A stretch of DNA of 43,337 nucleotides. Source: Candidatus Faecousia excrementipullorum (GTDB lineage: Bacteria > Bacillota > Clostridia > Oscillospirales > Oscillospiraceae). The position numbers and the translations under genes are program-made. How positions within the stretch are numbered: position 1 is the stretch's first letter; every line of letters begins with the position of its first letter. Location: positions 1 to 43,337 of the forward strand of contig DVGG01000016.1 of NCBI GenBank assembly GCA_018712825.1, written 5' to 3'. The notes under the pieces are model-generated. The model was not told the origin of the DNA and did no database searches. It saw nothing but the letters and a program-made list of their open reading frames with translations. Of the stretch, positions 3,651 to 15,457 are shown piece by piece.

Positions 3651-4352
3651 TCAGGAATGGGTGTATTCTTTCCCCAGCATTGCCAGGAAGGTCATGCCCA
3701 TAATTTTGATGTCCTTAAAAAAGCCGAAGCTGCGGATGCCCTCTAAGTTATAGCGCATCTTTCCCGGAAGAATCTTCTCCACATAGACCCGGTCTGAATC
3801 CTCCGCGCCATTCAGCAGCCGCTCCTCATCCTTATAATAAATACTGGTGAGGCTGGTAACCCCCGCCGGCAGCAGGAAGGTGGCCAGCATCTCCGGGGTG
3901 TAGCTGGCGGCATACTTGGGAACCTCCGGCCGGGTGCCCACGAAGGTCATGGTGCCCCGGAACACATCCAGAAGCTGCCCGATTTCATCCAGCCGGCACT
4001 TGCGGATGACCCTTCCCACCCGGGTAATCCGGCTGTCGCCCCCCACCGTCACCTGGGAGCCTTTGTCCGCCCCCTGAACCATGGTGCGGAACTTGAAAAT
4101 CCGAAAGGGCTTGCCGTACTGGGTCAGCCGCACCTGGCGGTAGAACACCGGCCCGGGGGAGTCCAGCTTGATGACAACCGCCAGCACCAGAAACACCGGG
4201 GACAGAAGCACCAGCATCACCGCCGACACTCCAATGTCAAACAGCCGCTTGCACAGAAGGCTTCCTCGCTTCTTGGAAAGAATGTCATAGTATTCCCGCA
4301 CCTGAGGGGTCTGCATGGCTGCCGGCAAGGCCTCCCATTTTACAAGCCGCAT
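3651..4352 (-). CDS. Sugar transferase (monotopic phosphoglycosyl transferase)
   Basis: A 233-residue bacterial sugar transferase (Pfam Bac_transf; PglC/WcaJ-type catalytic core). Such enzymes move a phospho-sugar from a UDP-sugar to undecaprenyl phosphate and so start glycan assembly at the cytoplasmic face. Seen here: a re-entrant hydrophobic helix at about 41-62, the DSPGPVFYRQ motif, FKFRTM, the catalytic Asp-Glu pair D122-E123, and FVGTRPE near 137-143. The short length means only the catalytic domain, without the four-helix N-terminus of WbaP/WcaJ. The start ATG at 4352 has AAAGGAG upstream and overlaps the end of the DegT gene by 13 bases, so translation is probably coupled. The sugar is unknown; the DegT partner suggests an amino sugar. 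Confidence 0.92.
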   Translation of the reverse strand: MRLVKWEALPAAMQTPQVREYYDILSKKRGSLLCKRLFDIGVSAVMLVLLSPVFLVLAVVIKLDSPGPVFYRQVRLTQYGKPFRIFKFRTMVQGADKGSQVTVGGDSRITRVGRVIRKCRLDEIGQLLDVFRGTMTFVGTRPEVPKYAASYTPEMLATFLLPAGVTSLTSIYYKDEERLLNGAEDSDRVYVEKILPGKMRYNLEGIRSFGFFKDIKIMGMTFLAMLGKEYTHS

Positions 4353-5554
4353 GGCAGATACTCCTTTACAATCCGGCAGAAATGCTCCACCAGGTACTGA
4401 GCCTGAACATCTGTCAGGCAGGTGTGCAGGGGCAGGGTAATCTCCCGGGCAAAGTGGCTGTAGGCGTTGGGGAAATCCTGAATGTCAAAGCCCAGATTCT
4501 TGTAAGCCGTGAGCAGGGGCAAGGGCTTGTAGTGGACGTTGGCGGCAATCCCCGCCTCTGCCAGCTTCACAATGATCTCCTGCCGCTGCTGGGGGGTAAT
4601 GCCGGGAATCCGGGTAATATACAGGTGGCCGGAGCTTTCATAGCTTTCCGTATAGTGGGGCAGCACCTCCACCCCCAGGGGCCGGAAGGCGGCATCGTAC
4701 CGGGCAATCAAATCTTTTCTTCTTGCCAGCAGGGCGTCATACCGCTCCAGCTGGGCAAGACCGATGGCAGCCATGATGTCCGTCATGTTGCACTTGTACC
4801 AGGGGCCCAGCACATCGTACTCCCAGGCCCCCAGTTGGGTCTTGGCCAGGGCATCCTTGGACTGACCGTGCAGGCTCAGAAGCTGCAATTTGTGGTAAAT
4901 CTCCTCATCGGACACACCGGGGAAGGTTCTCCAGGTGAGGGCGCCCCCTTCTGCGGTGGTGAGATTCTTCACCGCATGGAAGCTGAAGCTGGTAAAGTCC
5001 CCGATACTTCCCACCGGGCGGCCTTCCCACACTGCGCCAAAAGCGTGGGCCGCATCCACGTTCACGCTGATGCGCCCCAGAGCCTCCTGCAAAGGGCTGT
5101 TGGGACGGAACAGGCTGCGCTTTCTTTCCACAATCTCAAAAATCCGCCGGTAGTCACAGGGGACGCCTGCCAAATCCACCGGGATAATGACCTTGGTCTT
5201 TTCCGTGATGGCCTTTTCCAGGGCATCATAGTCCATCTGGAGGCTGTCCTTCCGGCAGTCCACCATCACCAGCTTCGCCCCCACATGGCACACCACCGAT
5301 GCGGTGGCGGTATAGGTATAGGCCGGTACAATTACCTCATCCCCCGGGCCCACTTCCAGCAGCCGCAGGGCCATCTCGCCGCAGGCGGTCTGGGAATTGA
5401 GGCACACCGCCATAGGGGTGCCGCACCGGGCGGCAATTCTCCGTTCAAATTCCTTGGTTTTGGGGCCGGTGGTAATCCAGCCGGAGAGGATGGCCTCCGC
5501 CGCCGCCTGGGCCTCCGCCTGGGTCATATCCGGGGGAGAAAAAGAAATTTTCAT
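4340..5554 (-). CDS. DegT/DnrJ/EryC1/StrS family aminotransferase
   Basis: A PLP-dependent sugar aminotransferase of 404 residues. The family converts keto-sugar nucleotides to amino sugars. Visible motifs are SGWITTGPKTKEFE near the N-terminus, DAAHAFGA (the Asp that contacts the PLP pyridine nitrogen, about residue 167), and FSFHAVKNLTTAEGG with the Schiff-base Lys near residue 196. I chose the ATG at 5554 because GGAG sits nine bases upstream and the family's conserved N-terminus begins there (MKISFSPPD); the ATG at 5569 is an alternative that adds five residues. It has a strong promoter of its own. The 4,6-dehydratase that would make its substrate is not in this window. Confidence 0.92.
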   Translation of the reverse strand: MKISFSPPDMTQAEAQAAAEAILSGWITTGPKTKEFERRIAARCGTPMAVCLNSQTACGEMALRLLEVGPGDEVIVPAYTYTATASVVCHVGAKLVMVDCRKDSLQMDYDALEKAITEKTKVIIPVDLAGVPCDYRRIFEIVERKRSLFRPNSPLQEALGRISVNVDAAHAFGAVWEGRPVGSIGDFTSFSFHAVKNLTTAEGGALTWRTFPGVSDEEIYHKLQLLSLHGQSKDALAKTQLGAWEYDVLGPWYKCNMTDIMAAIGLAQLERYDALLARRKDLIARYDAAFRPLGVEVLPHYTESYESSGHLYITRIPGITPQQRQEIIVKLAEAGIAANVHYKPLPLLTAYKNLGFDIQDFPNAYSHFAREITLPLHTCLTDVQAQYLVEHFCRIVKEYLPCGL

Positions 5555-5620
5555 ATTCACTATCTCCATTTCCTGTCCTTCCGGTCATCCCAACGCCGGA
5601 AGGCAGACATATGTCAGAAT

Positions 5621-5716: not shown

Positions 5717-6838
5717 TCAGACAGATTCCTTCTCAAACCGCTCCATAGCGGAGAGGATGACGGCATCCATGTCGTAGTACTTGTACTCGCCCAGGCGGCC
5801 GCCGAAGATGATGTTGGGCTCCCGGTCTGCAAGAGCCTTGTACTTTCCGTACAGCTCCCCGTTTACCTGGTCGTTTACCGGGTAGTAGGGCTCGTCACCG
5901 GGCTTCCACTCGGAGCTGTATTCCCGGCTGATGATGGTCTTGGGCACATCGTTGCCATTGTCGTCCTTGCCGAACTGGAACCACTTGTGCTCAATGATTC
6001 GGGTGAAGGGGGTCTCCCGGTCGGTGTAATTCACCGCAGCATTGCCCTGGAAGTTGGGGCTGTCCAGAGTCTCCGTCTCAAACCGGACGGAGCGGTACTG
6101 GAGGTAACCCAGCTGATAGCCAAAGTAGGCGTCGATGGGACCGGTGTAGACCACCTTCTCCGCCAGGGCGTCCAGCTCCTCCTTGTGCTCCAGATAGTCA
6201 GTGTTCAGGCGCACCTCGATGCCCTCCAGCATGTTGGCAACCATCTTGGTATAGCCGCCCATGGGGATGCCCTGATAGAGGGCATTGAAGTAGTTGTTGT
6301 CAAAGGTCAGACGCACCGGCAGCCGCTTGATGATGAAAGCGGGCAAGTCCTTGCAGTCCCGGCCCCACTGCTTCTCCGTGTAGCCCTTGATGAGCTTCTC
6401 GTAAATGTCCCGGCCCACCAGAGAGATGGCCTGCTCCTCCAGGTTCCGGGGCTCGCCGGTAATCTCCCGGCGCTGCTGGGCAATCTTGGCCTCCGCCTCC
6501 TGGGGGGTGACCACACCCCACATCTTGTTGAAGGTATACATATTGAAGGGCATGGAGTACAGCTCACCCTTGTAATTGGCTACCGGGGAGTTGGTGAAGC
6601 GGTTAAACTCCGCAAAGTCCTGCAAAAAGTCCCAGACCTTCTTGCTGTTGGTGTGGAAGATATGGGCACCGTACTGGTGGACATGGATGCCCTCCTCCAG
6701 ATAGGTGTAGACATTGCCTGCAATGTGGTTCTTCTTTTCCACCACCAGGCACTTCTTCCCGGCCTTCTTGGCCAGGTTGGCAAACACCGCGCTGTAAAGA
6801 CCGGCGCCTACAAAAAGATAATCGTATTGCTTAGACAA
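5717..6838 (-). CDS. glf: UDP-galactopyranose mutase
   Basis: A flavoenzyme of 373 residues that interconverts UDP-galactopyranose and UDP-galactofuranose; it works only with reduced FAD. The FAD-binding fold is at the N-terminus (YLFVGAGLYSAVFA, then VVEKKNHIAGN), followed by HQYGAHIFHT, GYTEKQWG and a conserved C-terminal FGGRLGEYKYYDMD. The start is a TTG at 6838, one base after the stop of the preceding gene, with GGAGGT eight bases upstream; that RBS lies inside the last codons of the upstream gene. Longer frames starting at ATGs inside the upstream gene have no better RBS. Its neighbours (GlfT2-like transferase, redox/pyruvyl-transferase fusion) point to a galactofuranose-containing surface glycan. 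Confidence 0.95.
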   Translation of the reverse strand: MSKQYDYLFVGAGLYSAVFANLAKKAGKKCLVVEKKNHIAGNVYTYLEEGIHVHQYGAHIFHTNSKKVWDFLQDFAEFNRFTNSPVANYKGELYSMPFNMYTFNKMWGVVTPQEAEAKIAQQRREITGEPRNLEEQAISLVGRDIYEKLIKGYTEKQWGRDCKDLPAFIIKRLPVRLTFDNNYFNALYQGIPMGGYTKMVANMLEGIEVRLNTDYLEHKEELDALAEKVVYTGPIDAYFGYQLGYLQYRSVRFETETLDSPNFQGNAAVNYTDRETPFTRIIEHKWFQFGKDDNGNDVPKTIISREYSSEWKPGDEPYYPVNDQVNGELYGKYKALADREPNIIFGGRLGEYKYYDMDAVILSAMERFEKESV

Positions 6839-6839
6839 A

Positions 6840-9215
6840 TCAGCGTACCTCCATTCTGCTGTCATAGCACGGGAATGCGCAATGAGAATCCACCTTTTTC
6901 GGGGAGAAAAGCACATCGTGTAGCCATGTTTTGGATCTCACTCTTTCCTTTTCCAGAATCTCATACACAGGCTCATAATCAACCGGCTCCAAAAACGCAG
7001 GATTTCCTACAATCTCACTGGCATCCGTAACAAATCGATGATTCAAATGGAACAGATTTACCAAAGACTCAAACCGGGATAACCCCCGCCCCTTGTTGCC
7101 GATGCCCACAAACGGACGCCCGAAAACAATGGCGAAACTCATACCATGGCAGGAATCGGTAATCAGATATTCGCAGTTTTTGATATAATACAACCAGTCC
7201 TCCACCTGAACATTCTCGGGAATTTCTCCCATGCCCATGGCAGCCTGCTTATTCTTGGCAAAATCCCAGGGAGTACCATCCAGCAGATTGATTACCTTTA
7301 TCCCCATCTGCTGAGAAATCCACTTGACCGCTTCTTTCTTCTCATTAGAATAGTCCAGGATATATGTGCAAATATACTTTTCATCCTTATCCGGGCGGTT
7401 ATTGGCAGCAGCCTTTTCCGTCAACTCATCAAAAATCTCACGGTCGGCAGCAAAAACAGGGTCCAGAACCTGGACAGCGTCCACCCCATAAACGTCCTTG
7501 CAGATTTTTACACCGTCCGCCTCACGCACACCAATGCCATCAAACCGGGACATATACTCAGAAATCGTTGCACGCTCTGTAATTCCGCTAAAGTCTGCGG
7601 CATGTCCGAAAGAGGCTGCATAGGTTATTTTTTTCTTGTTGGCATCTGCGAAATCAAAATAGTAAGCCATACCGAAAGATTTGTTGATTCCACGGTTCAA
7701 GACCTGATCGCTGCCCAAGACAAAAGCATCCACATGTGCGTTTAGCTGGTGATGATCTCTGAGATTTCTTCTTCTGCTGATTTCATAATGCTCCTCAGCA
7801 AACCGTCGGGAATGGGTATACCCCAATTCCGGGTCATTGGGATATACCAATGGTTTATCAATCATCAGGACAGACAAGCCAAAGCTGCGGATAATCTCGT
7901 GAAGCGCATAATAGGTGGCAATACTGCCGTAGTTACAGCCAAACCACACACCCATAATACCCACATCGAACTTAGCCTTCGTTGCATATTCAAAAGCCTT
8001 GTCCAAGCTGGCTCCCATGTTAATCATGTCAAAATAGCGTCTATGAGCAGGATTGGTTTTGAAAGAGTGATTATACGGCTGACCATGGGTCAGAATATAC
8101 TCAGTGTCCACTCTTTCCAAAAGCTTAAGATCTTTTCTGATTATTTCCAGCAGCTTTTTCCCTTTTTCGCTGTTTACAGAAACAATGGAAGTACCCTTTT
8201 GGTCATCAAAATTACGCTTTAATGCACCCGCTCCCCAGAAATCCGCCAGAGTCAAATCTCCCTGACGGGGGATTTTAGCAAAAAGGCAATGTCCGCAGGA
8301 TTTTCTCAGCGATACAAAAGGTTGAAATGCTTTGTAGTAGGGGTCTGTTACCTTGGATTTTCTATACACCCCGCCGTCTTTGTACTGAACAGTCATGCCG
8401 GCAGTCCAACCAAAATGCGCTTTCTCCCGGAAGCTGATATGGGCAATCTCATGTCCGGCGTGTTCCTCTTTCAAATACTTTTCAAAAAGCTTCGGGGATG
8501 GGCTTCCATGGCACATTAAATCCAACGTATAAAGATTGTCGGTGTCAATTTTCTTGCCATTCAAATATGCATACAATCCGGCAACCTGACAGCCGCAGCC
8601 GCAGAACAAGACCAACTTCTGCTGCTTTAGCAATTCGCCTATCTGGGTGTATGCCGTATTCGTATCACTTTGCACATACTTGGACTCACGCAGCTTCGGC
8701 ATATCTTCTTCCGACGAGACGATCGTGTGCTTTAGCACAAAATTCTCATCAAAAGCCGCACCGCACACATAACCACCATTTGCCAAAACATAGGAGGAAA
8801 CCAGAGAGAAAATACCGCCGGAGGAACTTTTCGCTCTTACCTCATCAGAACCCATTGCTGCATAGCACACAGGCTTATCCCAATTGGGATATTGGGGATT
8901 CATCACCGGGCATTGCCGGGCACACAGCCCGCAATTTACACACTTATCCTCATGGACAACCGGAGCCAGAAAGCCCTCCCGGTCAAATTCCATGGTAATG
9001 GCCTGTGTGGGACAGACATTGCTGCAAGCGCCGCAGCCGGTGCAGTATTCCGGCTTCAGGTCCGCTACGGTTTTAGGGGGGGTAATCCGGGTAATACATA
9101 CCGGCTCCTCTTCCTGCTTTTGTGCAGCAGCTTGGGGGGCGGCAGGTTTCCCCGGAAACAGGACCCGCTTTGCTTCCGCCAGGCGGCGGACATACTTGTT
9201 CTGTCTCAGATTCAT
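6840..9215 (-). CDS. Fusion: ferredoxin/F420H2-dehydrogenase beta-like domain + polysaccharide pyruvyl transferase
   Basis: A 791-residue two-part protein. Residues ~55-105 form a 2x[4Fe-4S] ferredoxin module (C58, C61, C64, C68 and C92, C95, C98, C102). Residues ~115-395 match the coenzyme F420 hydrogenase/dehydrogenase beta family (SSSGGIFS, FREKAHFGW, SCGHCLFAK, ADFWGAG). Residues ~416-720 match polysaccharide pyruvyl transferases (DVGIMGVWFGCNYGSIATYY; VLGSDQVLNR; TDSCHGMSFAIVFGRPFVGIGNKG). Pyruvyl transferases add a pyruvate ketal from PEP to sugars; the redox domain's substrate is unknown. The usual GTPCQ-like loop reads CGCGCQ (205-210), giving extra cysteines. ATG at 9215 overlaps the GlfT2 stop (ATGA), and its end carries the glf RBS, so the three are translationally coupled. 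The region is visibly AT-richer than flanking genes, hinting at transfer. Confidence 0.9.
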   Translation of the reverse strand: MNLRQNKYVRRLAEAKRVLFPGKPAAPQAAAQKQEEEPVCITRITPPKTVADLKPEYCTGCGACSNVCPTQAITMEFDREGFLAPVVHEDKCVNCGLCARQCPVMNPQYPNWDKPVCYAAMGSDEVRAKSSSGGIFSLVSSYVLANGGYVCGAAFDENFVLKHTIVSSEEDMPKLRESKYVQSDTNTAYTQIGELLKQQKLVLFCGCGCQVAGLYAYLNGKKIDTDNLYTLDLMCHGSPSPKLFEKYLKEEHAGHEIAHISFREKAHFGWTAGMTVQYKDGGVYRKSKVTDPYYKAFQPFVSLRKSCGHCLFAKIPRQGDLTLADFWGAGALKRNFDDQKGTSIVSVNSEKGKKLLEIIRKDLKLLERVDTEYILTHGQPYNHSFKTNPAHRRYFDMINMGASLDKAFEYATKAKFDVGIMGVWFGCNYGSIATYYALHEIIRSFGLSVLMIDKPLVYPNDPELGYTHSRRFAEEHYEISRRRNLRDHHQLNAHVDAFVLGSDQVLNRGINKSFGMAYYFDFADANKKKITYAASFGHAADFSGITERATISEYMSRFDGIGVREADGVKICKDVYGVDAVQVLDPVFAADREIFDELTEKAAANNRPDKDEKYICTYILDYSNEKKEAVKWISQQMGIKVINLLDGTPWDFAKNKQAAMGMGEIPENVQVEDWLYYIKNCEYLITDSCHGMSFAIVFGRPFVGIGNKGRGLSRFESLVNLFHLNHRFVTDASEIVGNPAFLEPVDYEPVYEILEKERVRSKTWLHDVLFSPKKVDSHCAFPCYDSRMEVR

Positions 9216-11041
9216 AGATGCAAATACTCCTCCCAGAATTCATTGGAAACCATGGTAGAAAATGCTTCCCGATATGCCTGTTCCACGGCAGCATGATTCT
9301 TCTTGTAATTTCTCATTACGCCTACATACCGCTTTATCAGCGCAAAGCACCGCTTTCTGTTAATGGTACGCTCACAGGCAGACCGTTCAAAGGGATTCAC
9401 CGCAATCAGCTTTTTACGCCAGAAGTTCTTTCCGGGGACAAAGAACCAGTCAAAAGCAATTACCTCCGGCCATCCTCTGAGCATAAAATTGGGCACCAGA
9501 TGACCGTTGATGGTGGCAATATAAATGAGCTTTTGCAGCTTGTTCATTCGCTTGTAGGAATAGGGGTCGGCATTGTTCAGGTCATATGCTGCCGGCATAT
9601 TCTGGAAGGGAATCAGCTTGTCATTCATCGCACCGTGGGCTTTGATGGATGCCTCGCCGTTGAGGGTTTCCAGGAACTGAGGGCCCTTCAGATAATCCTC
9701 AATGGAATCCAGAATCTGGGAGGCATTGTTGTAGGAGAAGCGGGTGATCTCCTTCCAGAACATAGGCTTCAGCCGGGCAAGGAAATCCACATCCTGGCAG
9801 ATTCCGCTGGCGGCCTGGATAATCAGGCTGTTTCTATGCACCTGATACAGTTCCATAGCTGCATTAAACTTTCCGGCAAAGCCCACGTGCCAGACACTGA
9901 TTCCGTTCATGGTCAGGAACTGGGCATGATTACGCAGGCTGAACTCCACATCATCTCCCCGGACGAACAGCGGCAGGGGCAGACCATTCTTCTCAATGGC
10001 GGTGGTGGGGATACAGCAGAACCACCAGCCGGCGTAACAGTGCTCCTGCTGCCGCTTTGCCATCTCCTCATTACGGAGCAGGTTGTCCAGCCACCGCATA
10101 TCCATTCTGTCCTTCAGCGGGCCGTAGGAACCCTCCTCAATGTGGACATATCCCACATCCTCATACTGGGTTTCTCGGTTGTCATAATCAAACATGGCGC
10201 CGCTGACAAAGTGGTTTTCAAATTCCGGCCGAAGAATCCGCAGCAGGAAATAGGTGCGGAACAGGCTTTCGCTCATCAGCAGAATGTCGTCGTCCATCAG
10301 CAGCACATGGGTAGGCCGCTTGGGCATTTTGAGAGATTCCATCATGCCTCTGGCATAGCCGCCGGAACCGCCTACATTGGCATTGGGATGAATCTTGATG
10401 CCCGGACACTCCAATTCCGCCGGATTCAGGGTACGGCCATTGTCCACAATGTTTACGAAGATATGATCTTTCAGTTCACTGCCCTCGCAAAGCACATCCC
10501 GTTTCAGATTCGCTATATTTTTCTTGATATAGGATTCCTTCTTGAATGTGGTAGAAGCAATGGAAATATAGATGTCCCGAACATGGGCAGCCTCCACCTC
10601 GGTGCTATAGCTGCCGCCATACAAGGAAAAGTCCTCCAGTGCAGTGATTTCAAAGCCCAGAAGGATGCTGTCTGTCTCCGGCAGGGCGATAGTAGCCTGG
10701 GTGCGCTCTTTGGACACCAGGCTCTGCCGCAGCAGCAGCTCCCGGTTGACATTCTTGGAATTTTTATAAAAACCAAAAATCTCCACCGTTGCCTTGCCGC
10801 TAAAATCCAGATTCAAAAAGAATTTCTCACCGTAAGTCTTTGTCTTCCAGCTCTCCAGCTGCAAGCAGTTGAAATAGGTGGCAAAATCTACCATGCAGTA
10901 TTTCTTGATGATATGGCAGTTCTTTCCTGCATCCACAATCATTCTCTGATTTTTGTGCATTAAGTCTCCATAGCCTCTGAAATTCGCATCGGCGTTTCCG
11001 ACCAAAATGAGATTTTGAATTTTAACCTGTATTTTCTCCAT
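9212..11041 (-). CDS. GlfT2-like galactofuranosyltransferase
   Basis: A 609-residue glycosyltransferase resembling mycobacterial GlfT2, which polymerises galactofuranose from UDP-Galf. The N-terminal ~155 residues look like its beta-rich domain. The GT-A core follows, with FVNIVDNG near 195-202, the NVGGSGGYARGM motif (222-233), the metal-binding DDD at 250-252, an aromatic WWF at 339-341, and the base-containing RGDDVEFSLR at 361-370 with a downstream His near 385. The ATG at 11041 has AAAGGAG about 13 bases upstream, somewhat far. It follows the GT2 gene by 61 bases and overlaps the next gene by four (ATGA). With glf two genes downstream, a galactofuranan product is likely; the acceptor and linkage are unknown. 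Confidence 0.9.
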   Translation of the reverse strand: MEKIQVKIQNLILVGNADANFRGYGDLMHKNQRMIVDAGKNCHIIKKYCMVDFATYFNCLQLESWKTKTYGEKFFLNLDFSGKATVEIFGFYKNSKNVNRELLLRQSLVSKERTQATIALPETDSILLGFEITALEDFSLYGGSYSTEVEAAHVRDIYISIASTTFKKESYIKKNIANLKRDVLCEGSELKDHIFVNIVDNGRTLNPAELECPGIKIHPNANVGGSGGYARGMMESLKMPKRPTHVLLMDDDILLMSESLFRTYFLLRILRPEFENHFVSGAMFDYDNRETQYEDVGYVHIEEGSYGPLKDRMDMRWLDNLLRNEEMAKRQQEHCYAGWWFCCIPTTAIEKNGLPLPLFVRGDDVEFSLRNHAQFLTMNGISVWHVGFAGKFNAAMELYQVHRNSLIIQAASGICQDVDFLARLKPMFWKEITRFSYNNASQILDSIEDYLKGPQFLETLNGEASIKAHGAMNDKLIPFQNMPAAYDLNNADPYSYKRMNKLQKLIYIATINGHLVPNFMLRGWPEVIAFDWFFVPGKNFWRKKLIAVNPFERSACERTINRKRCFALIKRYVGVMRNYKKNHAAVEQAYREAFSTMVSNEFWEEYLHL

Positions 11042-11102
11042 AAGAATTTTTAGTCTCCTTTGTTGGCAGGAATATAATATTCCGTCTGTTCTTTCAAAAA
11101 GC

Positions 11103-12128
11103 TCACTGAAAATCGTGATTTCCTCTGAGTTTATTGTAGAGCCTGCTGTCAAGCACGGCTTCAAACTGCCGCCGGGTAATGTGCAGGCGGCTCATGACCT
11201 GAAAGATTTTGTATTTTCCCTGAATCTGCCGGTAGTTTTCCGGGAAGGGGGTGCGAAGGGCCTCCACCGCTTTTTCTGCCAGGGCTCTTCCCTGGGCCTT
11301 GTCCGGGCAGACCAGTAAGGCCGTAGTCAGGTAGCTCATTAAAAGCCCCTGGGCTTTGGCGGCGGCGTAGTCCCGGCCTGCTCCCGGGGGGAGCTTCTCC
11401 CCTTCTGTCAGAAGGCGATTGAGCACCGCCTCCACGTGGGAGATGCGCTTCAGCTGGTTGGCATCGGACACGCTCTGGTTCCCATCCCCGATCCGGTACA
11501 CATACAGGAAAATATCCAGAGGGGTCACCGTTTCTGCGTGGCAGCAGGGGAAGGTGGCAAACTCGTGGTCCTCGTAGAAAATATGCTCCGAGAGCTTGAG
11601 CCCCATCCGGTGGTAAAAGTCCGTCCGGTAGGCAATGCCGTGGAAGGTCAGGGCCCGGTCAAAGTCCCCCCAGCGGCCCATCACATCCTCCAGAGTCATA
11701 GCCTTTCCGAAGGTCTCCGGGTAGCACCGCCAGGCTTTTTCCTCCCCGGTGGTGATGTTCACCGTCCGGTAGTGGGTCAGCACCACGTCGCTTTCACACT
11801 TTTCCAACGCCTTTACAAAGGCCGGAAGGCTCCGGCTTTCTACCCAGTCGTCGGCGTCAATCACCTTCAGGTACTTGCCCTGGGCGGCGGCGCAGCCGGT
11901 ATTGAGGGCGCCTCCGTGGCCCAGATTCTTCTGGGTGATGAGGCGAACCGTGCCGGGATACTGCCCGCAAAAGCGGAGGGCAATCTTCTCCGTGGCATCA
12001 GTAGAGCCGTCGTTTACCACAATGATTTCCAGGGCGGGAAGAACAGAAGGCTCCAACATACTGGAAATGCATTTTTCCAGGTAGGCTTCGCTGTTATAGG
12101 CGGGGATGACAAAGGATAACAGTTTCAA
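11103..12128 (-). CDS. Family 2 glycosyltransferase
   Basis: A 341-residue GT-A glycosyltransferase. The N-terminal domain is classical: LSFVIPAYNSEAYLEKCISS, VVNDGSTDAT, a GGALNTG loop and VIDADDWV with the DXD-type motif. The C-terminal third is family-specific and has no recognisable domain. It transfers a sugar from an unidentified nucleotide-sugar onto the growing surface glycan. The start is a TTG at 12128 with GGAGGT nine bases upstream. It is the first gene of the galactofuranose operon. Its leader contains two further copies of the same RBS-TTG arrangement (see repeat at 12133-12229). Confidence 0.92.
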   Translation of the reverse strand: MKLLSFVIPAYNSEAYLEKCISSMLEPSVLPALEIIVVNDGSTDATEKIALRFCGQYPGTVRLITQKNLGHGGALNTGCAAAQGKYLKVIDADDWVESRSLPAFVKALEKCESDVVLTHYRTVNITTGEEKAWRCYPETFGKAMTLEDVMGRWGDFDRALTFHGIAYRTDFYHRMGLKLSEHIFYEDHEFATFPCCHAETVTPLDIFLYVYRIGDGNQSVSDANQLKRISHVEAVLNRLLTEGEKLPPGAGRDYAAAKAQGLLMSYLTTALLVCPDKAQGRALAEKAVEALRTPFPENYRQIQGKYKIFQVMSRLHITRRQFEAVLDSRLYNKLRGNHDFQ

Positions 12129-12452: not shown

Positions 12453-13349
12453 ATGACACACGCGATCATTGACATTGGCTCCAACTCCATGCGGCTTACG
12501 GTCTATCAGGTGGAGAATCACACCTTCAAAATTTTATTCAAGGAAAAAATTATGGCAGGCCTGGCAGGCTTCGTGGAAAACGGATACCTGACCCAGGCGG
12601 GGATTTACCGGGCCCGGGACGCCCTGCAGGAGTTCGGCAACGTTTTGTCCCTGCTGGATCTGCGGGATCGGGTCCACGTGCTGGCCACCGCCTCCCTGCG
12701 GAACATCCGCAACACCCGGGAAACGGTGGAGTTTCTCACCCGGCAGACCGGCTTCTCCATTGACGTCATCTCCGGCAAGGAGGAGGCGGTCTACGGCTAT
12801 CGGGGTGCCATGTACCAGTTTGCCGTATCGGAAGGGGCGTTCCTGGACATCGGCGGCGCCAGCACGGAAATCACCATCTTCCGGGACGGTCAGGTGCAGA
12901 CGGCGGAGAGCTGCCCCGTAGGCTCCCTCCTTCTCTACAAAAACTGCGTAAAGAAAATCCTCCCCGGTTCCGGCTCCCGGAAGCGGATTGAAGAAATGAT
13001 TGCAGGAGCCATCCCCCAGGAGCTTCTTTCCCGCCTGCCCTCCCATGCCCAGCTCATCTGCATGGGCGGCACCTGCCGGGCGGTGGGGAAGCTGGCAAGA
13101 AAGCTGAACCTCATGGACTCGGAGATTCCCAGCCTGAGCCTTTCCCAGCTGGACAAGGTGGGTCAGCTCCTTCTGGGAGAGGAAAAGCTGGCAGCGGATA
13201 CCATTTTGCAGGTGGACCCGGTGCGGATTCACACCATCGTCCCGGGCTATCTCGTTTTGTCCCACATTGCCCACGCCCTGAAACCGGAGCAGCTGCTCAT
13301 CAGTGACTACGGCGTCCGGGAAGGGTACCTGGCGGAAAAGGTGCTGTAA
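12453..13349 (+). CDS. ppx: Exopolyphosphatase / Ppx-GppA family phosphatase
   Basis: A 298-residue ASKHA-fold hydrolase of polyphosphate and/or pppGpp. Seen: the N-terminal phosphate-binding loop IIDIGSNSMRL (residues 5-15), GKEEAVYGYRG near 107-117, and the second loop DIGGASTEI near 130. It ends after the two catalytic subdomains, without the C-terminal HD-like helical domain of longer Ppx proteins; this short form is common in Firmicutes and actinobacteria. The start ATG at 12453 has AGGAGG upstream. Its stop overlaps the ppk start by one base (TAATG), so the two opposing activities, breakdown and synthesis of polyphosphate, are made together. Confidence 0.93.
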   Translation: MTHAIIDIGSNSMRLTVYQVENHTFKILFKEKIMAGLAGFVENGYLTQAGIYRARDALQEFGNVLSLLDLRDRVHVLATASLRNIRNTRETVEFLTRQTGFSIDVISGKEEAVYGYRGAMYQFAVSEGAFLDIGGASTEITIFRDGQVQTAESCPVGSLLLYKNCVKKILPGSGSRKRIEEMIAGAIPQELLSRLPSHAQLICMGGTCRAVGKLARKLNLMDSEIPSLSLSQLDKVGQLLLGEEKLAADTILQVDPVRIHTIVPGYLVLSHIAHALKPEQLLISDYGVREGYLAEKVL

Positions 13350-15457
13350 TGGAAAACTATCTCTATACCCAAAACCGGGAGTTCAGCTGGCTTCGCTTCA
13401 ACCAGCGGGTGCTGGAAGAGGCGGCTGACCCCTCCCTGCCGCCTCTGGAGCGGCTGAAATTCGTATCCATCTTCTCCTCCAACTTAGACGAGTTTTTCAT
13501 GGTGCGCTCAGGCAGTCTCTTTGACATTGCAGCCATGGAGCCGAATCAGGTGGACAACAAAAGCGGCCTGACCCCCCAGCAGCAGCTGATGGGCATCTAC
13601 CAGATGACCGCCGCCCTTGTGGGTCAGAAAGAGCAGGTCTATGGGGAGGTCTGCCGGAGCCTGGAGGTGCAGGGAATCGCCGATGTGCCCTTCTCCGCCC
13701 TCTCCAAGCAGGAGGCAGACTACGCCCGGGGCGTCTTCCGGGACCAGATTCTCCCGGTGCTCTCCCCCCAGATCGTGGACAGCCGCCACCCCACCCCCCA
13801 TTTCGGAAACAAACAGCTGTATATTGCCTCCCTGGTAAAGAGCAAGCACGACAAGTCCTCCATGGCCTTTACCCCGGTGCCGGAGGTACTGCCCAAGGTG
13901 GTGATGCTTCCCGGCAGCACCCGGTTCATCCGCACGGAGAACCTGATTCTCCACTTCGCCTCCGCCCTCTACGGCAACTACACCCCGGTGGAGAGCTGCA
14001 TCTTTGCCGTGACCCGGAACGCCGATGTGCAGTTTGACTCAGATAAATTCGAGGACGCCGAGGAGGACTACCGGATTCACGTGAAGAAGCTGCTGAAAAA
14101 GCGCCGGAGCCTGGCGATTCTGCGGCTGGAGCTGAACGCCCCCGTGTCCCCCTCCTTCCGGAAGGAGCTTCTGAAATTCATCCCCGTGGAGGAGCACCAG
14201 ATTTACACCGATACCACCCCCTTGCAGATGGGCTACGTCTTCGGGCTTCTGAAGCTGCTGCCGGAGTCAGCCGCCCAGGCCCTGTCCTATCCGCCCCACA
14301 CCCCCCAGTGGCCGGAGGGTCTGAGCCGGGAAGCTTCCATGATTTCCCAGATTCTGCAAAAGGACCGGTGCCTGTTCTTCCCCTTCCACTGCGTGGACCC
14401 CTTTATCCGGCTTCTCAATGAAGCCGCCGACGACCCCCAGGTGGTGTCGGTGAAAATCACCATCTACCGGCTGGCCTCCTCCTCCAAAATCGTAAGAGCC
14501 CTGTGCCACGCCGCCGAAAAGGGCAAGGAAGTGGTGGTGCTCATGGAGCTGCGGGCCAGATTCGACGAGGAGAACAACATCGCCTGGTCGGAGATGCTGG
14601 AAGAGGCCGGGTGCAAGGTGATTTACGGCATGGAAAACTACAAATGCCACAGCAAAATTTGCCTGATTACCCGGCAAAAGAAGGGAAAATTCCAGTACAT
14701 CACCCAGATTGGCACGGGAAACTACAACGAAAAAACCAACGCCATGTATACGGATCTGAGCCTCATGACCGCCGACCCGGAAATCGGCGCCGATGCCACC
14801 GCCTTCTTCCAGAATATGCTGGTGGGAAATGTGGAGGGCAGCTACCGGCGGCTGCTGGTGGCTCCCAACGGCATCCGCCAGACCCTTTTCGCCCTCATCG
14901 ACCGGGAGATTGCCAAGGGTGACCGGGGCTATATCTGCATCAAGGTCAATTCCATCACCCACCGGGGAATGATCGACAAGCTGGCAGAGGCCTCCCGGGC
15001 GGGGGTGAAAGTCCAGCTCATCGTCCGGGGCATCTGCTGCATTCGCCCCGGAATCCAGGGCAACACCCAGAACATCACCGTCACCAGCATCGTGGGACGG
15101 TACCTGGAACACGCCCGGATTTACTGCTTCGGAAAAGGAGAGGAGCAGGTGTTTTACATCTCCTCCGCAGATCTCATGACCCGGAACCTGTGCCGCCGGG
15201 TGGAGATTGCCTGCCCGGTGACAGACCCGGCTATCCGCCGGGCTCTGGGGTATATTCTGCGCACCCAGCTCTCCGACACCGCCAAGGCAAGCCTGCTGCA
15301 GCCCGACGGCACCTACCTGCGGAAAAACGGCCAGCCTCCCATAGACAGCCAGGCGGTATTCTCCCAGACCCCCTTCCCTCCGGAAAAGCCTGTGGCTCCC
15401 GGGAAGCCCCTGGGGCTTCTGGGGCGGCTTCTCCGGCGGAAAACCGGCTCCTCTTGA
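13349..15457 (+). CDS. ppk1: Polyphosphate kinase 1
   Basis: A 702-residue PPK1 that makes polyphosphate from ATP. The N-domain (RELSWLRFNQRVLEEA-type start; here EFSWLRFNQRVLEEA, then SNLDEFFMVR), the middle domain and two phospholipase-D-like catalytic domains are complete. The phosphorylated histidine is H434 in YKCHSKICL. The second catalytic-site histidine of E. coli PPK (H454, in AHIGTGN) is replaced by Q453 in ITQIGTGNYNEKT. The C-terminal tail is proline-rich and poorly conserved. No separate RBS gap exists: the ATG overlaps the ppx stop, implying translational coupling. Confidence 0.96.
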   Translation: MENYLYTQNREFSWLRFNQRVLEEAADPSLPPLERLKFVSIFSSNLDEFFMVRSGSLFDIAAMEPNQVDNKSGLTPQQQLMGIYQMTAALVGQKEQVYGEVCRSLEVQGIADVPFSALSKQEADYARGVFRDQILPVLSPQIVDSRHPTPHFGNKQLYIASLVKSKHDKSSMAFTPVPEVLPKVVMLPGSTRFIRTENLILHFASALYGNYTPVESCIFAVTRNADVQFDSDKFEDAEEDYRIHVKKLLKKRRSLAILRLELNAPVSPSFRKELLKFIPVEEHQIYTDTTPLQMGYVFGLLKLLPESAAQALSYPPHTPQWPEGLSREASMISQILQKDRCLFFPFHCVDPFIRLLNEAADDPQVVSVKITIYRLASSSKIVRALCHAAEKGKEVVVLMELRARFDEENNIAWSEMLEEAGCKVIYGMENYKCHSKICLITRQKKGKFQYITQIGTGNYNEKTNAMYTDLSLMTADPEIGADATAFFQNMLVGNVEGSYRRLLVAPNGIRQTLFALIDREIAKGDRGYICIKVNSITHRGMIDKLAEASRAGVKVQLIVRGICCIRPGIQGNTQNITVTSIVGRYLEHARIYCFGKGEEQVFYISSADLMTRNLCRRVEIACPVTDPAIRRALGYILRTQLSDTAKASLLQPDGTYLRKNGQPPIDSQAVFSQTPFPPEKPVAPGKPLGLLGRLLRRKTGSS

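Follow-up and report, generated by a model that had tools for sequence, protein, structure and literature searches.

What reaction would call for a ferredoxin, a flavin reductase and a polysaccharide pyruvyl transferase in one polypeptide? The question is raised by a 791-residue protein encoded in contig DVGG01000016.1 of Candidatus Faecousia excrementipullorum (Oscillospiraceae; GenBank assembly GCA_018712825.1), of which positions 1 to 43,337 were analysed and are referred to here as the window. In this protein, a 2x[4Fe-4S] ferredoxin domain and an FrhB-type flavin reductase precede a PF04230 "polysaccharide pyruvyl transferase" domain (PSPT). Comparison of its sequence and gene neighborhoods with those of its relatives suggests that the fusion protein is probably a single-chain sugar lactyl-ether (1-carboxyethyl ether) synthase serving a galactofuranose-containing surface polysaccharide. 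Lactyl ethers are found as decorations on the O antigens and capsules of bacteria. If the proposal is correct, one fused gene would provide a compact system for an in vitro test, the family name "polysaccharide pyruvyl transferase" would cover two predictable chemistries, and genomes could be read for lactate versus pyruvate decoration.

A genuine fusion found in both domain orders

The open reading frame (ORF) begins with ATG and contains no internal stop codons. An earlier interpretation, the sequence-only reading, had proposed the three domain types without a database search, and the Pfam analysis bears these assignments out. Fer4-type repeats, FrhB_FdhB_N (27.4 bits, cut-off 22), FrhB_FdhB_C (77.2 bits, cut-off 23.3) and PS_pyruv_trans (PF04230; 95.7 bits, cut-off 25.3) are all above their curated cut-offs, so that each half matches its family. 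A frameshift or missed stop between the domains had also been considered. Four named relatives from metagenome-assembled genomes (Oscillospiraceae, Ruminiclostridium twice, and Clostridia) encode the same chain as a single ORF with 49–67% identity, so the fusion cannot reasonably be put down to an assembly error of this kind. Within the source genome (1.96 Mb, 78 contigs), the single PF04230 match and the single PF04432 match both fall inside this ORF.

Matches spanning both halves were found in at least 16 places in 14 of 295 genomes of the same order, the window included, with at most three candidates per genome scored in nearly all rows. A wider set of 115 loci was searched as six-frame translations; most are neighborhoods of genes related to the one in the window, and similarity to the window protein was the main ground for choosing them. 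Both domains were present in one ORF in 38 cases, 20 with FrhB first and 18 with the PSPT first. Only ORFs holding both domains were counted, a one-base gene overlap (L129) not being taken as a fusion, and since some come from near relatives, the 38 ORFs are not 38 independent fusions. One locus encodes a 1641-aa protein with two additional family 2 glycosyltransferase (GT2) domains (L052). A search of viral contigs identified no relative of the window protein.

The sequence-only reading held that such domains are usually neighboring separate genes, and this arrangement is indeed common. At L051, from one genome of the same order, the cassette of the window is present with the fusion split, in the order GlfT2-like galactofuranosyltransferase, FrhB, PSPT and UDP-galactopyranose mutase (glf). 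A less selective view was obtained from 72 genomes, being every fourth of the 295 minus G094 and G162, which had been matchless in the 295-genome search. There, 25 FrhB loci score above the cut-off, and 16 of them share an ORF with, or lie within about 5 kb of, a PSPT that also does so (counted by eye; 17 of 25 if one sub-cut-off PSPT match is included). Some contigs are short enough that partners can be missed. When two domains are fused in both orders and also occur as adjacent genes, this usually signals two steps in a shared task.

Interchangeable reductases beside related PSPTs

The nature of that task is suggested by plasmid-borne relatives. A tblastn search of plasmids matched 80 records, 30 of which were listed, and the neighborhoods of 20 of those 30 were examined. 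The PSPT partner was FrhB in six, a nitroreductase in five (one of them 4.7 kb away), a MurB-like protein in four and a thiamine diphosphate (ThDP) enzyme in one, with none in the remaining four. Two of the nitroreductase cases are single-chain fusions (Gemmobacter and P. alcaliphilus), as is one MurB case, from Paracoccus aestuarii plasmid pAES7 (L103), in which FAD_binding_4 and MurB_C are joined to the PSPT. Separate nitroreductase genes lie near the PSPT in an E. coli plasmid, L. plantarum and Allorhizobium, and separate MurB-like genes in Cetobacterium, Novosphingobium and L. brevis. The P. aestuarii MurB domain matches S. aureus MurB (PDB: 1hsk) with an E-value of 1.3e-47. It narrowly passes the TIGR00179 cut-off of 144.5 bits (146.3), and the L. 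brevis protein also exceeds it (162.3); the Cetobacterium and Novosphingobium genes score below it (130.5 and 124.2 bits), and MurB_C had no Pfam match in the latter.

PSPTs with different partners may be closely related. The MurB-fused L103 and nitroreductase-fused L148 sequences are 68% identical over 500 aligned positions, after which the alignment ends. The PSPTs of L155 (MurB-like) and L157 (nitroreductase) are 53% identical, and those of L101 (FrhB) and L097 (nitroreductase) are 99% identical. On a quick IQ-TREE phylogeny of 144 PSPT rows with SH-aLRT support, from which Pvg1p and characterised CsaB were absent and in which several long branches were flagged, the nitroreductase partner requires seven changes for seven rows and MurB four changes for four rows. 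Since related PSPTs carry different ones, three flavin-reductase families (FrhB, nitroreductase and MurB) fill one slot, and the pattern looks general. The established reaction of MurB is the reduction of an enolpyruvyl ether, which yields a lactyl ether. Because MurB catalyzes this step and shares the slot with FrhB and nitroreductase, the simplest common task is enolpyruvyl-ether reduction. The MurB partners were found beside relatives of the PSPT of the fusion protein; for the FrhB half, this activity is a proposal.

Small Klebsiella and E. coli plasmids carry cassettes of flippase, reductase, PSPT and glycosyltransferase genes (L096 341-6268; L097 16314-20589; L101 6725-14798). L101 has the FrhB version plus, beside another PSPT, a nitroreductase fragment. 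E. coli DNA searched with the Klebsiella plasmid pair gave no match.

Proposed mechanism

In the scheme we infer, of which the chemistry, electron donor, flavin, acceptor sugar and stereochemistry are all predicted, the PSPT half would take phosphoenolpyruvate (PEP) and a sugar hydroxyl, release phosphate and leave an enolpyruvyl ether, or its oxocarbenium equivalent, in place of a cyclic ketal. A low-potential donor, probably ferredoxin, would feed electrons into the 2x[4Fe-4S] domain, from which they would pass via the FrhB-type [4Fe-4S] cluster to a flavin. The reduced flavin would then give a hydride to the enolpyruvyl group, generating a stable lactyl ether.

The overall logic would be that of MurA and MurB, carried out by other protein families on another sugar. 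In peptidoglycan synthesis, enolpyruvyl transfer from PEP is followed by a flavin-dependent reduction that produces the lactyl ether of MurNAc. The sequence-only reading could name no biochemistry for a redox step tied to sugar pyruvylation, and here it needs correction: MurA followed by MurB is a close precedent, and MurB itself stands in for FrhB beside, or fused to, PSPTs of the same subfamily. The differences are that the fusion protein has no MurA-family domain among its Pfam matches, that FrhB and MurB belong to different Pfam families, and that the fusion is a single chain with Fe-S electron input and, presumably, a polysaccharide sugar as acceptor. The suggested assay for a PEP-dependent ketal is probably aimed at the wrong product; a lactyl (1-carboxyethyl) ether is expected instead.

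The PSPT active site and a ketal alternative

The PSPT active site can be compared with that of Pvg1p, in which the modelled contacts to PEP are R217, R337, L338 and H339 (PMC6801904). Pvg1p (PDB: 5ax7) is matched at 9e-9 by a profile built from 10 PSPTs, aligning its ITDRLHAH stretch with VtdsfHgt and R217 with an invariant Arg. The fusion protein keeps R564 and H690 as the R217 and H339 equivalents and has S688 and C689 in place of R337 and L338. The ketal-type R-L-H pocket of WcaK and Pvg1p is thus absent (S-C-H). In comparison to the ketal enzymes CsaB, WcaK and Pvg1p, with which it shares the PF04230 family, the fusion protein is distinguished by this Ser and by its FrhB partner, and its PSPT lies in a different clade of the tree from WcaK and the R-L-H rows.

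Partners were tallied according to the motif at the R337-L338-H339 position. When all rows are considered, 95 S/T/F-x-H PSPTs have FrhB fused or nearby in 68 cases, a ThDP enzyme in 8, nitroreductase in 7, MurB in 4 and none in 8, while the 44 R/K-x-H PSPTs have FrhB in one case, nitroreductase in one and none in 42. A further R-T-H clade of 13 has FrhB in 11 and none in 2. Two rows are gapped at this position, and L100 and L106, which duplicate another O124 locus, were excluded from these counts. The 72-genome figure is less biased, since it was mainly resemblance to the query that decided which loci entered the all-row counts. With FrhB sought in the ORF or within 5 kb, it is present for 12 of 13 S/T-x-H PSPTs and 0 of 41 R/K-x-H PSPTs (Fisher p=3.8e-11), as well as for 5 of 7 in the R-T-H clade. 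This accounts for 61 of the 62 above-cut-off PSPTs, the omitted one being G150:C79 (L115; RLH, partnerless in a 3.3-kb contig). These motif and partner counts were made with a PSPT profile seeded from the window; adding WcaK and a CsaB-like protein to the seeds let the set drift to 229 matches, and that version was dropped. We read the R-to-S change as marking a subfamily, which does not prove the chemistry. As a separate observation, two genomes have an R-T-H PSPT and an FrhB gene on different contigs (G054: L121 8688-9893 and L122 7008-8210; G110: L087 9515-10633 and L088 9475-10605).

An unlikely explanation is an ordinary ketal pyruvyltransferase: the product of the PSPT half would be a cyclic pyruvate ketal, formed for example on galactofuranose (Galf), as happens in Klebsiella K12, and the FrhB half would be a redox sensor or an accessory. 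In its favor, the PF04230 family takes its name from ketal pyruvylation, the fusion protein retains the equivalents of R217 and H339, and Klebsiella K12 combines 5,6-pyruvyl-Galf with a pyruvyl-transferase gene and glf (PMC4616057). This account leaves unexplained why MurB or nitroreductase replaces FrhB beside related PSPTs, and why the ketal enzyme WcaK keeps R-L-H and has no such partner in the 12 kb read.

Enolpyruvyl ethers as a possible branch point

PSPTs of the same subfamily are also fused to, or near, ThDP enzymes (L053 196-2973; L054 9908-12694; L139 2578-4302; L152 8706-10445). Where tested these are MenD-like, with TIGR00173 as the best match (157 bits for L139 and 163 bits for L152, under the cut-off of 244), and short-chain dehydrogenase/reductase or epimerase genes lie near several of the ThDP-paired PSPTs. 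Stetter-type addition of an acetyl unit to an enolpyruvyl ether, with the ketone then reduced, would yield 2,4-dihydroxypentanoic acid in ether linkage; PMC10609480 reports this acid as a substituent in Providencia. From the pairing with ThDP enzymes and dehydrogenases it follows that enolpyruvyl ethers may be a branch point.

The same pairing lends something to an alternative in which the fusion protein forms the enolpyruvyl ether as proposed and its reductase acts on a different, later intermediate, leading to another PEP-derived substituent. This is quite improbable for the window, as no ThDP enzyme was identified by Pfam among the cassette genes scanned and the MurB cases point to simple reduction. 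Lactyl-ether synthesis remains the preferred reading. On balance, we lean towards a broader view in which a large PF04230 clade with S/T-x-H (typically TDSFHG) in place of the R-L-H of ketal enzymes, the window protein included, would consist of sugar enolpyruvyltransferases and not ketal pyruvyltransferases, making it a second enolpyruvyl-transfer family besides MurA. Its product would be passed to one of several interchangeable partners: FrhB, MurB or nitroreductase would turn it into a lactyl ether, and a MenD-like ThDP enzyme with a dehydrogenase into a longer ether, 2,4-dihydroxypentanoic acid being one example.

Galactofuranose context

The fusion gene sits between genes for a GlfT2-like transferase and glf, all on the same strand (Table 1). 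The glf gene lies within 6 kb of 12 of the 20 FrhB-first fusions, often in the order GlfT2-like, fusion, glf, and three of the eight without it are within 2.3 kb of the edge of the stretch read. It is near 0 of 18 PSPT-first fusions and was matched in seven other regions with unfused PSPTs, including L051, the E. coli O124/O164 cluster and the MurB-fused Paracoccus locus. Galactofuranose is a frequent companion of the subgroup to which the window belongs and not part of the general function. That the FrhB half instead reduces the flavin of the neighboring UDP-galactopyranose mutase, which needs reduced FAD, while the PSPT acts separately on galactofuranose, fits the glf-rich FrhB-first, O124/O164 and Paracoccus loci and is highly improbable, the distribution of glf beside PSPT-first fusions and unfused loci ruling it out as a general role.

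Possible links to known lactyl-ether products

Adjacent wzx, FrhB and PSPT genes annotated as O124/O164 occur in 5 of 5,426 E. coli genomes, and three of the five loci were read. The same two families are neighbors here as in the fusion protein, and glf follows in the one cluster read that far. The differences are that two separate proteins are encoded, that this FrhB is without the four Cys of one ferredoxin cluster, and that the PSPT is annotated in two pieces in three of the five genomes. It is annotated as one gene in the other two, so intact copies exist. Cross-reaction of E. coli O164 with S. dysenteriae type 3 is stated in the title of one paper. The O124 and O164 clusters are 98–99.9% identical, with occasional cross-reaction, according to DebRoy 2016 (PMC4732683). 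A Shigella dysenteriae O antigen contains 4-O-[(R)-1-carboxyethyl]-D-glucose (PMC10609480).

Klebsiella capsules provide a second possible link. In Pan 2015 (PMC4616057), pyruvyl-transfer genes are found in 4 of 46 pyruvate-free types, namely K8, K22, K37 and K66. The survey also lists one F420-hydrogenase-type and two nitroreductase genes. O-lactyl groups in Klebsiella capsules are mentioned in a passage of PMC11048683, and an "O-lactose" printed in a passage of PMC6856556 may mean O-lactyl. Among the titles and abstract beginnings listed in a literature search, none links a PSPT and FrhB or MurB to lactyl ethers, none describes the interchangeable-reductase pattern, and no enzymological study of lactyl-ether synthesis was among the matches listed.

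Evidence weighing against a lactyl-ether synthase

Several observations count against the proposed function. With respect to the redox half, members of the FrhB family reduce varied substrates, orphan FrhB genes exist, and 8 of the 25 FrhB loci in the 72-genome sample are without a nearby PSPT match. With respect to the PSPT half, most R-x-H rows form one clade, so the contrast of 12/13 and 0/41 marks a subfamily and not many independent events. The R-T-H clade pairs with FrhB, so Ser at the R337 position is not required for that pairing. The S/T/F-x-H group is itself not uniform, given the eight members without any of the four sought partners and the eight paired with a ThDP enzyme. Two of the partnerless S-x-H PSPTs (L118 9613-11897; L141 9253-11580) directly adjoin a radical SAM-type gene, identified as Radical_SAM/SPASM by Pfam at L118 and by similarity to the L118 neighbor only at L141.

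The nitroreductase association also has weak members. One PSPT row (L097 11995) sits 4.7 kb from its nitroreductase and another is beside a fragment only. L171, the one R/K-x-H PSPT of the 41 in the sample with a nitroreductase-type gene within 5 kb, is among the seven nitroreductase rows of the tree, and its neighbor may be incidental. An AlphaFold2 model of the fusion protein calculated with four relatives was unusable (pLDDT = 45.6, pTM = 0.35).

The links to known products depend in part on assumptions. We take the S. dysenteriae O antigen with the lactyl ether to be that of type 3, and thus O124, and O124 would then have the lactyl ether that O164 presumably does not. Likewise, the capsules of Klebsiella K22, K37 and K66 presumably carry lactyl groups. 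A 2006 title on Shigella boydii (type 17) reportedly refers to two genes for glucolactilic acid, which may or may not correspond to FrhB and PSPT.

The redox half

The ferredoxin octet is near-universal, each Cys being present in 86–94 of 92–94 rows of the FrhB-family alignment. The FrhB partners of Pseudomonadota keep Cys 58, 61, 64 and 102 and are mostly without Cys 68, 92, 95 and 98, which would be expected to serve the second ferredoxin cluster. All four are missing in L096, L102 and L105; L098 is missing three with a gap at the fourth, and L101 is missing three with Cys 98 kept. In the FrhB domain, Cys 209, 235, 307 and 310 are Cys in 90 of the 90 rows with letters at these positions (13 of 103 rows are gapped) and align with Cys of F420-enzyme structures, making them likely ligands of the FrhB-type [4Fe-4S] cluster.

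The sequence-only reading had drawn attention to a CGCGCQ loop as a change that adds cysteines. The loop is present; the additional cysteines are not conserved. Only the last (C209) is universal, with C205 a Cys in 12 and C207 a Cys in 17 of 90 rows, and even the four closest relatives vary (CGCGCQ, CGCGCQ, SGCGCQ and TGCPCQ). The loop is ruled out as a functional change on this basis.

FrhB, FpoF, Fsr and HCAR flavin reductases share the combination of FrhB_N/C and ferredoxin with the fusion protein, and the FrhB half is detectable by profile in structures 8riu, 7npa, 3zfs and 5dqr. Unlike those enzymes, the fusion protein is far below the NCBIfam F420-enzyme cut-offs (41.3 versus 475 bits for the FpoF model), and these models give no support for F420 use.

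Features of the window and related loci

The coordinates of the features discussed are collected in Table 1. The listed glf ORF overlaps the end of the fusion gene, and its start is probably too early.

Table 1. Features of the fusion gene, its neighbors in the window, and FrhB partners at other loci.
Feature	Position	Strand	Basis or remark
Ferredoxin + FrhB-type flavin reductase + PSPT fusion gene, 791 aa	6840..9215	(-)	ORF listing and Pfam
2x[4Fe-4S] ferredoxin domain, residues 55-104; Cys 58, 61, 64, 68, 92, 95, 98, 102	8904..9053	(-)	Pfam Fer4/Fer4_7 and Cys conservation
FrhB_FdhB_N, residues 118-186	8658..8864	(-)	Pfam, 3.7e-6
CGCGCQ loop, residues 205-210, local variant of the usual G-[TC]-P-C-Q	8586..8603	(-)	Alignment
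FrhB_FdhB_C, residues 201-364, with Cys 209, 235, 307, 310	8124..8615	(-)	Pfam, 1.5e-21
PSPT domain PF04230, residues 428-708, proposed enolpyruvyl-transfer half	7092..7934	(-)	Pfam, 5.9e-27
S688-C689-H690, at the position of Pvg1p R337-L338-H339	7146..7154	(-)	Alignment; R564 at the position of Pvg1p R217
Bacterial sugar transferase (initiating phosphoglycosyltransferase type)	3651..4352	(-)	PF02397, 1e-49
DegT/DnrJ/EryC1 sugar aminotransferase	4340..5569	(-)	1e-89
glf, UDP-galactopyranose mutase	5717..6916	(-)	TIGR00031, 414.3 bits, cut-off 303.75
GlfT2-like galactofuranosyltransferase	9212..11164	(-)	Glft2_N 25.6 bits, just below cut-off 26.1; PDB 4fix, E=2.8e-27
GT2	11103..12128	(-)	PF00535, 6e-32
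Pseudomonadota FrhB partners	L096 1849-3279; L098 10043-11467; L101 12164-13534; L102 7695-10751; L105 2501-3883		Three or all four second-cluster Cys lost

At L003 the cassette is additionally accompanied by an ABC-2 permease and an ABC ATPase, which suggests ABC-dependent export at that locus. Within the window, exopolyphosphatase and polyphosphate kinase genes adjoin the glycan cluster on the opposite strand (12453-15457).

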